Origin: an uncultured Methylophaga sp.
GTDB lineage: Bacteria; Pseudomonadota; Gammaproteobacteria; Nitrosococcales; Methylophagaceae
NCBI GenBank assembly: GCA_913055695.1
Contig: CAJXKF010000003.1
Span: 269,247-333,246 of the forward strand
Direction of reading: 5' to 3'
Length of the DNA: 64,000 bases
Shown here in pieces: positions 43,737-49,861 of this stretch (within the stretch, counting starts at the first letter, position 1; each line of letters begins with the position of its first letter). Under the pieces are notes generated by a model. That model had not been told where the DNA came from. It was given only the letters and a program-made list of their open reading frames with translations, and did no database searches. Made by a program: the position numbers and the translations under genes.

Positions 43737-43744
43737 TCGAAACG

Positions 43745-43770
43745 AAAAAAGGGGCCGCGGCCCCTTTTTT
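43745..43770. terminator. Bidirectional terminator
   Basis: aaaaaaGGGGCCGCGGCCCCtttttt. Confidence 0.85.
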
Positions 43771-43787: not shown

Positions 43788-45266
43788 TCAGCGACTGGCT
43801 GACTTTCTCTCCTCCAGCCGGCGCAGAAACTCACGCATGATATCGTCATACAGCGCCATACCAAGATAGGCATCCTCCACGCCGCTGTCGATACTGGGGT
43901 TGTCATTAATCTCGATAATCACAATGCGGTTGCCGCTCTGTTTAATATCGATGCCGTATAAACCATCACCAATCAGTCGCGCTGCCTTGGTGGCAATGCG
44001 AATGACTTTTTCCGGTACTTCGCTGACCGGAATTGCCGCGGATTTACCGCTGTCGGTGCCTTTTTTGGTGTTGTGATTATAAATCTGCCAGTGACCTTTA
44101 CTCATAAAGTACTGGCAGGCGTATATCGGTTTGTTGTTAAAGACGCCAATCCGCCAGTCATAGTCGGTGTACATATATTCCTGCAGCAGAATAATCGCAG
44201 ACTGCTGGAAGAAGGCTGGTGCTTCACGGCGCAGTTCGTCGGCATTGTTGACCTTGATCACACCGCGGGAAAAGGCGCCGTCAGGGATTTTCATCACCAG
44301 CGGGAAAGTCGCGGTTTCACAGAGTGCATCCAGGCCTGCATTATCATTGCGATACAAAAGATGCGATTCCGGCATCGGCAGATCATTGGCGGCTAGCAGT
44401 TCCTTCAGATAGATCTTGTTGGTGCAGCGGATGATCGACGTCGGATCATCTATCACCACCAAACCTTCGCTTTCCGCGCGGCGGGCGAATTTATAGGTGT
44501 GGTTGTGGGTGGCTGTAGTCTCGCGGATAAACAGCGCGTCATATTCAGCCAGACGAATATATTCGCGCGGTGTAATCAGATCGACATCAATGCCGATGCG
44601 ACGGCCACTGCTGATGAATTTTTTCAGCGCGGCCATATTGCTCGGCGGCATTTCTTCCTTGGGATTGTGCAAAATCGCCATATCATAGCGGTACTGACGA
44701 CGTTTGGACGGCTTGCGCCACAGGCGGTGACTGAAGTTGTCCAGTGCTTCGGCAAAGAAATCCTGTTCCTGCTCAGTCAGTTTATTGATCGCACTGGCCT
44801 TGATGCGGGTAATGGTCCAGTGACCGTTAAAACTGAACTCGACATCGAGAATCGGGCAGGGGAATTGTTCGAAAATCTGCCGCGCCAGTTTCTGCAGTGA
44901 CGTGACCGGCGTCTGGCCGAAATAGATCTTCAGTACAAAGCGCTCTGACTGGTCGGTAGAGGCCAGCTGCTTGTCCAGTTGCGCCGACAGATCGGACAAG
45001 TCATAGGCATAGAGGCTTTTACGCGAGAGATCATTAATGGTACGCAGCCCCGGCAGCACACGGTGGCCGCGCGCTTCGGCCACCATAGAGCAATAATAAC
45101 CGCGGCTCAGGTACTCAAGACTGCGACAGAGGTTGAGGATCTGCGCGCGACTGTCGCTGCGCGGCGGTGCCGATTGCAGGTAATCATCAACGGCGATGAC
45201 CTGCTCACTGGGGAAATAGGGACTCCAGTCATCAATATTTTCGACTATTATCAAATGCTTAGTCAT
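43788..45266 (-). CDS. RimK-like ATP-grasp ligase with extended N-terminal region
   Basis: 492 aa; ATP-grasp features (FPLVMKIPDGAFSRGVIKV, YDWRIGVFNNKPIYACQYFMSKGHW, GLYGIDIKQSGNRIVIIEINDNPSIDSGVED). Confidence 0.88.
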   Translation of the reverse strand: MTKHLIIVENIDDWSPYFPSEQVIAVDDYLQSAPPRSDSRAQILNLCRSLEYLSRGYYCSMVAEARGHRVLPGLRTINDLSRKSLYAYDLSDLSAQLDKQLASTDQSERFVLKIYFGQTPVTSLQKLARQIFEQFPCPILDVEFSFNGHWTITRIKASAINKLTEQEQDFFAEALDNFSHRLWRKPSKRRQYRYDMAILHNPKEEMPPSNMAALKKFISSGRRIGIDVDLITPREYIRLAEYDALFIRETTATHNHTYKFARRAESEGLVVIDDPTSIIRCTNKIYLKELLAANDLPMPESHLLYRNDNAGLDALCETATFPLVMKIPDGAFSRGVIKVNNADELRREAPAFFQQSAIILLQEYMYTDYDWRIGVFNNKPIYACQYFMSKGHWQIYNHNTKKGTDSGKSAAIPVSEVPEKVIRIATKAARLIGDGLYGIDIKQSGNRIVIIEINDNPSIDSGVEDAYLGMALYDDIMREFLRRLEERKSASR

Positions 45267-45433
45267 AGTGTGCTGTTGCTTCCTCCTGCGCCAGCGTGAT
45301 GTTTAAAAATGAATGATAAAGTCAATTCAATCTGCATGTGTTAAAAATTTTTACGTGAGATTTTATTTGCTGGTCAAATTGAGCAAACTCACATATCCTT
45401 CGCGAAAAAATTATGCACAGGAGGCCCGTTGCC

Positions 45434-46510
45434 ATGTATGCAGATGCCGTTTTGAGTGTTTTTTCCCAGCGTTATGCGGGAGCTCGCGACAAATTCATCA
45501 GCCATGTCGAAACCAGTTCCATTGTGGAAAAGCTGTCCAATTTGCCGCACCCTCTTAAGGGGCCTAAAAACGAAAAGCTGTTCTGCGACATCGCCTGGGC
45601 CGGTAACCTCAAAGCCGACAAAGTGCTGGTATTGGTCTCCGGCATCCACGGTGTTGAAGGTGGCGTGGGCTCGGCTATCCAGTCTGATTTCGTCTCCCGT
45701 CACCGTCGTCTGCCTTCCGATGTCTGTGTGGTGCTGGTGCATGCTTTAAACCCCTGGGGTTTTGCCTGGGCCAGTCGTAATGACGAGCAGGGCATTGATG
45801 TCAATCGCAACTTTGTTGACTTTAACAGCACCCTGCCAGTTTCTGAAGCGACCGATATCTGGGCTGAATTACAGCAGGGCAAAACAGACATTGCGACGAT
45901 TGCCGAGAACCGCCAGCAATTTGACCTGTTATCCCAGGGTCAGTATGAAAAGCCGGATATGCCCTATTATGGCGGCAAAGAAGCCAGCTGGTCACGTCAA
46001 GTGGTGGAACAGCTTGTTGCGCAGCTTAAACCGACCAACCGCAAGCAAATTATTGTCATTGATATCCACAGTGGTCTCGGCCCTTATGGTTATGGTGAGC
46101 TGATCTGCGATCACCCGGTCGACAGTAAAGCCCATGATTATGCCGTCGATCTGTTTGGTGCTACGGTGACAGAACCTTCCTTGGGCAATTCCAGCTCCGG
46201 TACCAAGCTGGGTCTGCATGATTATTTCTGGCACAGTCAGGGGGAACATGTCTGCTACCTGACCCTCGAGTTCGGTACCTTTGGTAATCAGCAGATGCTC
46301 AAGGTACTGTCAGATGATCAGAAGCTTCAACAGTCGGGCAAAATGGACTGGTCGGATGACAAAACCCTCGATGTCAAACATGCGATGCAGGACTTTTTCT
46401 GCCCCGATGAACAACAATGGCAGGAACTGGTGCTGTTCCGCGGCCGTCAGGTGATAGAGATGGCACTGGACGGATTAACTGAGAATGCAAACCACAACAA
46501 CGGACGCTGA
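45434..46510 (+). CDS. M14-like metallopeptidase, DUF2817 family
   Basis: VSGIHGVEGGVGSAIQ (HxxE-type), NPWGFAWASRNDEQGIDVNRNF, IDIHSGLGPYGYGEL; ATG 45434. Confidence 0.82.
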   Translation: MYADAVLSVFSQRYAGARDKFISHVETSSIVEKLSNLPHPLKGPKNEKLFCDIAWAGNLKADKVLVLVSGIHGVEGGVGSAIQSDFVSRHRRLPSDVCVVLVHALNPWGFAWASRNDEQGIDVNRNFVDFNSTLPVSEATDIWAELQQGKTDIATIAENRQQFDLLSQGQYEKPDMPYYGGKEASWSRQVVEQLVAQLKPTNRKQIIVIDIHSGLGPYGYGELICDHPVDSKAHDYAVDLFGATVTEPSLGNSSSGTKLGLHDYFWHSQGEHVCYLTLEFGTFGNQQMLKVLSDDQKLQQSGKMDWSDDKTLDVKHAMQDFFCPDEQQWQELVLFRGRQVIEMALDGLTENANHNNGR

Positions 46511-47615
46511 CATCGACATTCGCGAAGCCACGCTGGATGATGTCGATGCACTGAACAAGCTGGAAAACGCCTGTTTCGATAGCGACAGGATTTCTCGCCG
46601 CAGCTTTCGCTGGATGATTGAAAAAGGTCACAGCCTGTTGCTGGTGGCTTTTATCGACCAGCAACTGGTGGGTTACGTCTTGCTGCTGTATTCACAGGGC
46701 ACATCGCTGGGCCGGGTTTATTCGCTGGCGGTGGATGCCCGTTTCCGCAAGGCCGGTATCGCTGCCAGACTGATGCAGGAAGCCGAAACCCGGGCACTGG
46801 AAGAGGGGCGCAGTTTTCTGCGGCTGGAAGTGCGTCCTGATAATCATGGCGCTATCCGGCTCTATGAAAAGCTGGACTACCAGCCTTTCGATATTGTCAC
46901 TGATTTCTATGAGGATCATGCTGACGCCCTCAGAATGATGAAGGTGCTGCATCACCAGCCTGAAATCACCCATCCTGAAGTCGCGCACTATTCCCAGACC
47001 ACTGATTTCACCTGTGGCCCGGCCTGTCTGATGATGGCGATGAAAACCTATGACGCACCACTGGCCCTGGACCGTCGCCTGGAATTCCAGCTCTGGCGTG
47101 AAGCGACCACCATTTTTATGACTTCCGGTCATGGTGGTTGCAGTCCACAGGGGCTGGCGCTTGCTGCCTACCGACGCGGCCTGAATACCACACTGGTGAT
47201 TAACTCCGATTTGATCCCCTTTGTCGGCGGTGTCCGCAGTGAAGACAAAAAGGCGGTCATTGAATGTGTCCATCAGGACTTTGTCGAACAGATCAGCAGC
47301 TCAGAAATTAAACAGCAGCATAATACCGTCGACACTGCCTTACTTAAACACTACCTGGACCAGGGGGCGCTGGCGCTGGTGTTGATCAGCTCCTACCGGC
47401 TTAACCAGAGTAAATCACCGCACTGGGTGCTGGTGGTGTCGGTGTCAGATACCTTTGTTTATTTCCATGACCCGGATGTCGATCTGGACGACAATAAAAG
47501 TCTCACCGACAGCGGATATATTCCGGTAACCCACAAGGAGTTCAACCGCATGCTCGGTTACGGTAAGCCACGATATCAGGCAGCAGTGATTGTCTCGGAC
47601 AGGGTACTCAAGTGA
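46485..47615 (+). CDS. GNAT acetyltransferase fused to C39-like peptidase domain
   Basis: N-terminal RimI-like GNAT (VYSLAVDARFRKAGIAARLMQEAE...NHGAIRLYEKLDYQPF) followed by TTDFTCGPACLMMAMK...SPHWVLVVSVSDTFVYFHDPD. Confidence 0.85.
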   Translation: MQTTTTDADIDIREATLDDVDALNKLENACFDSDRISRRSFRWMIEKGHSLLLVAFIDQQLVGYVLLLYSQGTSLGRVYSLAVDARFRKAGIAARLMQEAETRALEEGRSFLRLEVRPDNHGAIRLYEKLDYQPFDIVTDFYEDHADALRMMKVLHHQPEITHPEVAHYSQTTDFTCGPACLMMAMKTYDAPLALDRRLEFQLWREATTIFMTSGHGGCSPQGLALAAYRRGLNTTLVINSDLIPFVGGVRSEDKKAVIECVHQDFVEQISSSEIKQQHNTVDTALLKHYLDQGALALVLISSYRLNQSKSPHWVLVVSVSDTFVYFHDPDVDLDDNKSLTDSGYIPVTHKEFNRMLGYGKPRYQAAVIVSDRVLK

Positions 47616-47628
47616 TCTTGCTTATCTG

Positions 47629-47650
47629 ATAATAATAATCCTTATCATTT
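47629..47650 (+). promoter_or_regulatory. Candidate Fur box
   Basis: ataataataatccttatcattt, 58 bp upstream of a TonB siderophore receptor. Confidence 0.55.
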
Positions 47651-47707: not shown

Positions 47708-49861
47708 ATGTCTTTCACTAAAACTGTTATTGCCACCTCACTAGGGCTGATCACGCTTCAGCCTGCTCTCGCCGATACTTCAACATCACAAGACAGCAAA
47801 ACAGCGGTCTCTCTACCCAAAATGGGTGTTTCTGCTGAATGGTATGGTGCGTCAGAGCACACCGGTGAATACCAGGTAAAACAGATGAACACGGCGACCC
47901 GTTTAGGCTTGTCGGCAAAAGAAACACCTCAGTCGGTGTCGGTAATTACCCGACAGATCATCGACGACTTTGAGCTGCAAACCATTACCGATGTGGTGAA
48001 ACTCGCGCCGGGTATTACAGCCAAGGAAAATGACAGTTCCCGCTTTAACTACTCTGCGCGGGGTTTTGATATCAACAACCTGCAGATCGACGGCGTGCCC
48101 ACAACCTGGGAAAGTGGTTATTCTGCAGGCGAAACGATGACCGATACCGTGTTGTATGACCGTGTGGAAATCGTGCGCGGGGCTACCGGGTTGATTACAG
48201 GGGCGGGAGAGCCCTCTGCTGCTATCAATCTGGTGCGCAAGCGGGCTGACAGTCGTGAGTTTATCGGGCAAGCGACGGTTTCGGCAGGCTCATGGGACGC
48301 CTATCAGGGCACCGTAGATGTTTCCACCCCATTAAATGACGCCGGTACGGTCCGTGGCAGATTGGTTGGCAGCTATCGTGAAGCTGATTCCTATGTAGAC
48401 TTGCTGGGTGATGAGCGCCAGGTTTTTCTGGGCACGTTGGCCGCTGATTTGACTGAACGCACGCTGTTGAATGTGGGGGTGAGTTACCAGGATCATAATC
48501 CAACTTCATCCACATGGGGCGGTTTACCGGTCTGGTTCAGCGATGGTTCCAGAACAGACTGGAACCGTTCCAAAACCACCGCTGCCGACTGGACCCGCTG
48601 GGGCTCCGAGGTTACGAACTATTACGCTAATCTTGAGCACACCTTCGATTCCGGTGCCATGATTTATGCGGCATTCAGCAAAAGCGTAAATGAGGGGGAT
48701 TTACGTCTGCTTTATCTCAGTGGATCGCCAGATCCGAGCACGGGTTTGGGAATGAACTCAAGCCCGTCCTGGTATGACAATGAACGGGAGCAGGATAATA
48801 TCGACATCTACGGCAATATTCCTTTTTCATTGTTCGGGCAAGAACATGAAATCACACTGGGATTGATGCACAGTGAGCAGGATTTTATTGCGAAACGTCG
48901 CCATGCTTTGAACACCCCTGCAGTAGGTAATTTTTTTGAATGGGATGGTAATTATCCTGAGCCAAACTGGGGAGCAAAACGCACTTACGTGACCCGCGAT
49001 ACCAAGCAGACAGGTCTCTATGCCGTTACACGCTTGACACTGGCCGAGCCGCTGAAGCTCATTCTGGGCAGTCGTGTTACAGACTGGGAAGTGGAGGGAA
49101 TGAACTGGGATGGCAGTTTCTACAAATTCGAGCATGACGACGAAGTCACGCCATACGCTGGCCTGATTTACGATTTGAACGATACCTATTCTGCCTATGC
49201 CAGTTACACCGAGATATTCCAACCCCAGAATTTGCAGGATAAAAATGGTGATTTTCTGGAGCCAATTGATGGGGATAGTTATGAAACAGGGCTCAAAGCG
49301 GCCTATCTTGGCGGTCGTCTGAACACCAGCTTGTCAGTTTTTCGTATTGAACAGGACAATCTTGGGCAGATAGATCCGAATAATCTGGTGCCTGGGTCCA
49401 CTAATCAGGCCTATGAGCCTGCTGAAGGTGCAACAAGCAAAGGCTTTGAAATTACAATCAACGGTGCAGTGACTGATAACTGGAACGTGCTGTTGGGCTG
49501 GTCCCAGTTCCGGGCCGAAGATGCTAACGGTGAAGCTGTAAATACAGAGCATCCCCGTCGCACAGCGACACTCTATACGACATACCGCCTGAATGATTTG
49601 ACAGTGGGCGGTGGCGTAAACTGGGAAAGCAGTAACTACACCATTGCCAATAATCCTCAGGGCAATCCTGAAAAACTCAAGCAGGATAGTTTTGCCATTG
49701 TTAATTTGATGGCCAGATACCGGCTTTCTCCGCAACTACAGGCTCAGCTCAACGTCAACAACGTATTCGATGAAGAGTATTACAGCCAGATTGGCTTTTA
49801 TAGCCAGCTTGCTTATGGTGCACCGCGTAATGTGACTGCCAGCCTGCGTTACGATTTCTGA
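47708..49861 (+). CDS. TonB-dependent siderophore receptor
   Basis: KETPQSVSVITRQIIDDFELQTITDVVKLAPGI, VEIVRGATGLITGAGEPSAAINLVRKR; ends YDF. Confidence 0.94.
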   Translation: MSFTKTVIATSLGLITLQPALADTSTSQDSKTAVSLPKMGVSAEWYGASEHTGEYQVKQMNTATRLGLSAKETPQSVSVITRQIIDDFELQTITDVVKLAPGITAKENDSSRFNYSARGFDINNLQIDGVPTTWESGYSAGETMTDTVLYDRVEIVRGATGLITGAGEPSAAINLVRKRADSREFIGQATVSAGSWDAYQGTVDVSTPLNDAGTVRGRLVGSYREADSYVDLLGDERQVFLGTLAADLTERTLLNVGVSYQDHNPTSSTWGGLPVWFSDGSRTDWNRSKTTAADWTRWGSEVTNYYANLEHTFDSGAMIYAAFSKSVNEGDLRLLYLSGSPDPSTGLGMNSSPSWYDNEREQDNIDIYGNIPFSLFGQEHEITLGLMHSEQDFIAKRRHALNTPAVGNFFEWDGNYPEPNWGAKRTYVTRDTKQTGLYAVTRLTLAEPLKLILGSRVTDWEVEGMNWDGSFYKFEHDDEVTPYAGLIYDLNDTYSAYASYTEIFQPQNLQDKNGDFLEPIDGDSYETGLKAAYLGGRLNTSLSVFRIEQDNLGQIDPNNLVPGSTNQAYEPAEGATSKGFEITINGAVTDNWNVLLGWSQFRAEDANGEAVNTEHPRRTATLYTTYRLNDLTVGGGVNWESSNYTIANNPQGNPEKLKQDSFAIVNLMARYRLSPQLQAQLNVNNVFDEEYYSQIGFYSQLAYGAPRNVTASLRYDF

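Follow-up and report, generated by a model that had tools for sequence, protein, structure and literature searches.

A divergent cassette of an RLAN-RimK ligase, a DUF2817 hydrolase and a GNAT-C39 fusion in Methylophaga, a possible amide-bond module

Related systems and the Methylophaga locus

In Pseudomonas, RpsF is poly-glutamylated by RimK, an ATP-grasp ligase paired with the opposing peptidase RimB, which removes the modification. A ligase of the same fold is paired with a putative peptidase in the three-gene cassette considered here, which occupies positions 43788-47615 of a 64,000-nt stretch of DNA from an uncultured Methylophaga sp. (contig CAJXKF010000003.1; this whole stretch is called the window). 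In three loci of other genomes, rimK itself lies beside or near such a cassette. The cassette differs from RimK-RimB in that its ligase carries an additional RLAN domain and scores far below the RimK cut-offs, its peptidase is of the cysteine type (RimB is an aspartic peptidase), and a GNAT domain is fused to this peptidase.

The ligase fold and the pairing of a ligase with a hydrolase are also known from LysX and ArgX, which go with hydrolases of the LysK/ArgE type. However, no LysW-like carrier was noticed by the cassette and its ligase remains far under the respective cut-offs. Synthesis of N-acetylglutaminylglutamine amide (NAGGN) relies on a TIGR03103 GNAT/ATP-grasp protein and a peptidase, and thus follows a similar logic of GNAT, ATP-grasp and peptidase activities for an N-acetylated dipeptide. 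In contrast to that pathway, the cassette has no amidotransferase and only its GNAT is weakly similar to TIGR03103 (25 bits, below the cut-off of 569). The stress-related RloABC locus of P. aeruginosa likewise combines an ATP-grasp protein with a peptidase, but RloA is secreted, RloB is a membrane transglutaminase-like protein, and neither a GNAT nor an RLAN domain was described for RloABC (PMC12239564).

RLAN (PF14401) and DUF3335 (PF11814) are curated families and match exactly those of the cassette, including the fusion to GNAT. Citing Iyer et al. 2009, PMC10318531 mentions frequent fusions of DUF3335 to GNAT domains, which are possibly peptide ligases or acetylating domains. In the papers searched, links of RLAN or DUF3335 to DUF2817, DUF155 or a CpxR box were not found, with the exception of a motif-only entry for PA1345 (PMC12802237). 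An earlier note on this DNA had put the locus forward as its best candidate for an uncharacterised system. To call it an unrecognised system is too strong: the cassette is a real module, the families and part of the linkage of which are already on record, and not a new system. Iyer et al. 2009 reportedly linked RLAN-RimK to such genes as well, and no novelty is claimed for the pairing.

Genes of the cassette

The open reading frames (ORFs) and Pfam agree with the gene content given in the earlier note, a 492-amino-acid (aa) ligase on the minus strand facing an M14-like peptidase and a GNAT-C39 protein with the motif TTDFTCGPACL on the plus strand:

43788..45266, minus strand: RLAN-RimK ligase, 492 aa; RLAN at aa 27-174, pre-ATP-grasp and RimK-type ATP-grasp at aa ~190-490 (Pfam, structure model, alignment)
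45434..46510, plus strand: DUF2817 M14/AspA-like zinc hydrolase, 358 aa; ORF possible from 45413 (Pfam, alignment, Shine-Dalgarno sequence)
46485..47615, plus strand: GNAT fused to a DUF3335 C39-like cysteine peptidase, 376 aa; GNAT at aa ~10-155, DUF3335 at aa 167-370 (Pfam, structure model, alignment)

The ORF of the GNAT-C39 fusion overlaps the 3' end of the DUF2817 gene by 26 bp (46485-46510), as had been noted. Translation of DUF2817 probably starts at ATG 45434, since the sequence AGGAGG is located eight bases before it. Counted from this codon, the distance to the ligase gene is 167 bp, in line with the approximately 170 bp given previously, and it shrinks to 146 bp with the longest ORF (ATG 45413). 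All three proteins are taken as cytosolic because no signal peptide was seen when their sequences were read by eye.

The ligase is a member of the RLAN-RimK family and exceeds both curated Pfam cut-offs (RLAN PF14401, 183 bits against 25; RimK PF08443, 41 bits against 21). Its profile aligns with RimK across the ATP-grasp core, and the Mg/ATP residues K284, K326, D440, E452 and N454 are invariant in the alignment of 16 relatives. C47, within the RLAN domain, is also invariant. In the structure model (mean predicted local distance difference test, pLDDT, 81.8), the fold of aa ~190-490 corresponds to those of RimK with RpsF, ArgX with LysW, and LysX, with template modelling (TM) scores for the target of about 0.75-0.85. 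More specific assignments were not reached: the scores lie under the cut-offs of the RimK models TIGR00768 (91 against 143 bits) and PRK10446 (40 against 331 bits) and of LysX_arch (80 against 276 bits).

The fusion protein reaches 280 bits with DUF3335, above the cut-off, and 67 bits with GNAT (PF00583), and its model has a pLDDT of 87.9. The motif TTDFTCGPACL corresponds to residues 172-182. Among the aligned relatives Q171, C177 and H313 are invariant and D329 is nearly so; the Cys-His-Asp triad is intact. The GNAT half matches the N-alpha-acetyltransferases Ard1, NatC and RimI by sequence and fold (TM score for the target about 0.85-0.90), although it stays below the RimI equivalog cut-off (76.0 against 86.4 bits). 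Its residue E115 aligns with E127 of Ard1, a position altered in the mutants 6ag4 and 6ag5. The hydrolase scores 255 bits with DUF2817 (PF10994), over the cut-off, and H72, E75, R125 and H212 (numbered from the 45434 start) are invariant in seven relatives, H72, E75 and H212 being the zinc ligands. Thus, catalytic residues, the degradation of which the earlier note had named as a possible objection, are conserved in all three proteins.

Co-occurrence of the ligase and the GNAT-C39 fusion

Among 299 Pseudomonadota genomes, RLAN is present in 56 and DUF3335 in 47, and 46 genomes contain both (Fisher p=4e-43). The corresponding numbers for 184 gammaproteobacterial genomes are 43 with RLAN, 28 with a strong DUF3335 match and 27 with both (p=4e-20); since the sampled genomes are related, these Fisher p-values overstate independence. 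Nevertheless, the partnership is supported despite this kinship, because the genes for the ligase and the GNAT-C39 fusion are nearly always adjacent where they co-occur, and such adjacency in distant families is convincing by itself. The two belong together. The co-occurrence which the earlier note had proposed to examine is far above chance (RLAN in 46 of the 47 DUF3335 genomes), and its reservation that the genes might be separately conserved housekeeping loci does not hold for the ligase and GNAT-C39. The partnership is found in about one in six of the sampled Pseudomonadota genomes (46/299), and hundreds of bacteria share it.

The view that the genes form one divergent cassette is also borne out: the three-gene layout of the window recurs, far beyond chance, in ten other surveyed loci (L058, L091, L105, L113, L159, L168, L176, L179, L181 and L182; L numbers denote surveyed loci, G numbers surveyed genomes). 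Many of these genomes belong to Methylococcales, and the L105 ligase is 74% identical to that of the window. In L184 the three genes are arranged on one strand in the order ligase, DUF2817, GNAT-C39.

Partner genes of the ligase

In the gammaproteobacterial survey, the ligase was accompanied by GNAT-C39 in 26 loci including the window, and in one additional genome the two genes are on separate contigs. Three loci contain the ligase with GNAT alone, eleven contain it with a free-standing C39 protein, mostly together with GCS2 and an N-formylglutamate amidohydrolase (FGase), and a few copies are solo or broken. Among the named relatives, members of the Dyella/Rhodanobacter/Lysobacter group carry GNAT alone, and the C39 domain is also missing in G040, G170 and G176, while solo ligases were found in Alcanivorax and P. 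aeruginosa. In a maximum-likelihood tree of 85 ligases, the type with free-standing C39 constitutes one clade (support 100/100). The same tree requires at least three changes for the GNAT-alone type and at least five for DUF2817, and the three-gene cassettes with DUF2817 are found in separate branches.

The fused C39 domain and the free-standing C39 protein of the second clade are homologues (hhalign 96.9%, E=1.5e-10), and therefore the combination of ligase and C39 recurs in both clades. The genes of this second type form a row of free-standing C39, ligase, GCS2 and FGase-family protein in L070, L072, L074, L078, L079, L081, L085, L087 and L092; L084 and L090 contain C39 and ligase only. Altogether, only the ligase is constant; it is usually accompanied by GNAT and C39 and optionally by DUF2817, the case for which rests on adjacency and on the repeated layout.

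The families DUF2817, M14 carboxypeptidase and FGase all consist of zinc hydrolases that cleave acyl-amino-acid or peptide bonds. Near the ligase, DUF2817 is found in the three-gene form, an M14 carboxypeptidase in L057, L065 and L075, and FGase in the second clade. This common type of activity suggests that the hydrolase position is an exchangeable deacylase slot. In eight genomes an M20/ArgE gene adjoins GNAT-C39. Since none of these genomes has another close ArgE homologue, and ArgA follows in the loci checked, ArgE was rejected as a dedicated partner and left out of the slot argument.

Several loci deviate from these patterns. L097 (G151) contains a decayed cassette, in which the reading frame continues from the start of a GNAT into the middle of RLAN, with further frame breaks behind this junction. 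G234, G238 and G320, all from one genus, each encode a pair of RLAN-RimK paralogues, of which one lies near DUF3335 and the other apart. RLAN-RimK proteins about 51-54% identical to that of the window are encoded in two metagenome-assembled genomes labelled as belonging to other phyla, a Bacteroidetes (L106) and a Bacteriovoracaceae (L178) one, either by horizontal transfer or by misbinning of contigs. The control genome of Methanosarcina acetivorans contains DUF3335 without RLAN, and therefore DUF3335 has other contexts outside Pseudomonadota.

Proposed function and alternatives

We propose, with slightly less than an even chance of being right (about 0.48), that the genes encode a cytosolic amide-bond module which makes and remodels a short, probably acidic, peptide. 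The RLAN-RimK ligase would activate a carboxylate with ATP and join it to the amine of an amino acid, with the RLAN domain probably holding the acceptor. Judging by its fold and catalytic glutamate, the GNAT domain could acetylate the alpha-amine of the peptide. The C39-like domain, with its Cys-His-Asp set, may cut or transfer the peptide at a defined bond and thus act as a trimmer or an eraser. In this lineage DUF2817, which resembles zinc deacylases and carboxypeptidases, would take off the acyl cap or a terminal residue, so that amino acids are recycled. In favour of this proposal, GCS2 (another amide ligase) and FGase (an amidohydrolase) in the operon-like row of the second clade look like a toolkit for small molecules, and the logic there would be the same, with a ligase, a second transfer enzyme, a peptidase and a deacylase.

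The earlier note had suggested that four activities could make, cap and remove an amino-acid or peptide modification. As a set, however, these four are not obligate: DUF2817 is present in a minority of loci, the C39 domain is sometimes missing, some ligases stand alone, and the second clade has GCS2 and FGase in place of GNAT. Several observations weigh against our proposal. DUF2817 is missing from most ligase/GNAT-C39 loci, the class sample shows no significant association for it at the genome level (3/7, p=0.36), and the C39 domain was lost several times; since some ligases are also solo, no single four-enzyme pathway is universal. The ATP-grasp portion of the ligase matched RimK, ArgX and LysX, but the N-terminal RLAN region, the structure of which the earlier note had proposed to predict, had no structural match of its own in the fold search with the full ligase model. 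Moreover, the RimK and Ard1/RimI relatives are known to act on proteins, and our literature search retrieved no assay, activity or phenotype for any member of the module.

The substrates of these relatives favour the main alternative, in which protein tails are modified in a manner similar to RimK and RimB, an established ligase/protease pair (PMC12239564). The ligase would then extend a protein, perhaps a ribosomal one, by residues attached at its C-terminus or on a side chain, C39 would remove them, and GNAT would acetylate the same or a partner protein. We regard this as possible, though unlikely. All of the best-matching folds (RimK with RpsF, ArgX with LysW, Ard1/RimI) are from enzymes acting on proteins, and a canonical rimK is located beside the cassette in L177 (Marinobacterium rhizophilum, with rimB visible) and L180 (Oceanospirillaceae) and within 6 kb of it in L065 (G101). 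However, L177 and L180 represent one clade, so that independent rimK linkages are few. A DUF155 gene adjoins the cassette in L065, L091, L113 and L184, but in most loci both rimBK and DUF155 are missing from the vicinity. Further, the ligase stays under the RimK equivalog and subfamily cut-offs and contains the extra RLAN domain, and GCS2 and FGase of the second clade look metabolic. In short, the RimK, Ard1 and DUF155 links favour a protein tail as the product, while a small peptide is favoured by the partners GCS2 and FGase and by the amino-acid transport setting of the ligase gene of P. aeruginosa, which is near ggt, asparaginase and glutamate/aspartate uptake genes.

A different question is whether DUF2817 belongs to the system at all. 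The ligase and GNAT-C39 could constitute the system by themselves, with DUF2817 as a neighbour that shares the promoter region and serves another purpose. Its absence from most loci, the lack of significant co-occurrence at the genome level and the adjoining ArgE found elsewhere, as the sole close homologue probably a housekeeping enzyme, are consistent with this view. We nevertheless consider it improbable: at least ten other genomes, among them representatives of separate branches of the tree, share the layout in which DUF2817 is situated between both genes and overlaps GNAT-C39 or directly adjoins it, and the three genes still stay together in the rearranged L184. Still less can be said for a pathway that synthesises amino acids on a LysW-like carrier, in which the ligase would take the role of LysX/ArgX and the hydrolase that of LysK/ArgE. 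ArgX and LysX are among the closest folds, ArgE is next to GNAT-C39 in eight genomes with ArgA following where checked, and a gene with an argG-like start is near GNAT-C39 in L094. However, the LysX_arch score is far too low, no LysW-like gene was noticed among the neighbours of the window cassette, and arginine synthesis already accounts for the single close ArgE homologue per genome, making this explanation highly improbable. Maturation of a ribosomally synthesised and post-translationally modified peptide (RiPP), for example a graspetide, or an anti-phage function is hardly conceivable either. ATP-grasp and C39 enzymes as such are known from RiPP clusters (PMC8939145), but no precursor gene is evident in the cassette, the only spaces of which are the 167-bp gap and the overlap; within the 167 bp, no ORF with the size or conservation of a peptide precursor was detected. 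There is no transporter with the cassette, none of its three proteins matches PADLOC models, and the module is distributed like a chromosomal metabolic trait.

If the peptide module proposed here, or the protein-tail alternative, indeed produces a new N-acetylated peptide or protein mark, then this product has escaped notice even in genera as well studied as Pseudomonas. Owing to the partner swaps, the CpxR-like box described below and the DUF155 neighbours, the question can be tested in tractable strains. A far-reaching speculation, which we consider improbable as a whole, would be a widespread stress-linked cycle: RLAN-RimK would build an N-acetylated acidic peptide or protein tail, C39 would cut it, and exchangeable zinc deacylases (DUF2817, or FGase in the second clade) would recycle it. 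In addition to RimK-RimB, there would thus be a second system of writer, cap and eraser; its product would be a new metabolite or a new mark on proteins, and the system would be controlled by CpxR in Pseudomonas and tied by DUF155 to the membrane or the ribosome.

Neighbouring genes

DUF155 corresponds to the RMND1 family, the mitochondrial members of which support ribosomes. In addition to the four loci in which it adjoins the cassette, its gene is no more than a few kb away from it in L078, L079 and L081, and RLAN is present in 15 of 28 genomes with DUF155, compared to 43 of 184 overall (p=1.5e-4). In L177, a RimB-like sequence was recognised by eye 5' of each rimK. The region L177:1974-8461 contains two copies of the RimB-like/RimK pair that alternate with a GNAT-C39 fragment and a complete GNAT-C39 gene, followed by RLAN-RimK, an arrangement that looks like a tandem duplication with decay.

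Regulatory sequences and boundaries

The two intergenic features of the locus are:

45267..45433, no strand: divergent promoter region between the ligase and DUF2817 genes, 167 bp
43744..43770, no strand: GGGGCCGCGGCCCC, GC-rich palindrome between A and T runs, likely a bidirectional terminator (read directly from the sequence)

A CpxR-like box is present in 26 of 75 divergent loci, nearly all of them from Pseudomonas, while 2.7 are expected from single-base shuffles; the box-bearing Pseudomonas loci are closely related and the 26 are thus not independent cases. The box GTAAAGCTTGCGTAA is located 5' of the solo ligase gene of P. aeruginosa (L185:7827), and most other Pseudomonas loci (among L107-L161) have a near-identical one, GTAAAAGTTGCGTAAC, in the region between the divergent genes, where it belongs to the best conserved blocks. 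PMC12802237 lists GTAAAGCTTGCGTAA for PA1345, and since this box is upstream of the L185 ligase gene, the latter could be identified as PA1345. In that source the PA1345 site is a motif-only entry without a peak in DNA affinity purification sequencing (DAP-seq), and its listed expression changes, in the portion considered here, do not include PA1345. The Pseudomonas box would provide a testable handle on envelope stress. The divergent region of the window contains only a weak, one-mismatch CpxR-box-like element (ATAAA-N7-GTAAA, in the direction of the ligase gene), and CpxR control of the window cassette is not claimed.

TonB receptor genes are located on both sides of the window cassette. The palindrome GGGGCCGCGGCCCC is likely a bidirectional terminator between the ligase gene and one of them; it is not among the hairpins reported by the scanner, the smallest loop of which is three bases. 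A functional tie of the cassette to these receptors was rejected, as the likely terminator separates one of them from the ligase gene and the other has a Fur-like box of its own; in the other three-gene loci, no TonB receptor was noticed adjoining the cassette. The Fur-like sequence, GATAATAATAATCCTTATC at window positions 47628-47646, differs by two mismatches, counted by eye, from the Fur box GATAATGATAATCATTATC and precedes the TonB receptor gene at 47708, which is probably under iron control, apart from the cassette.

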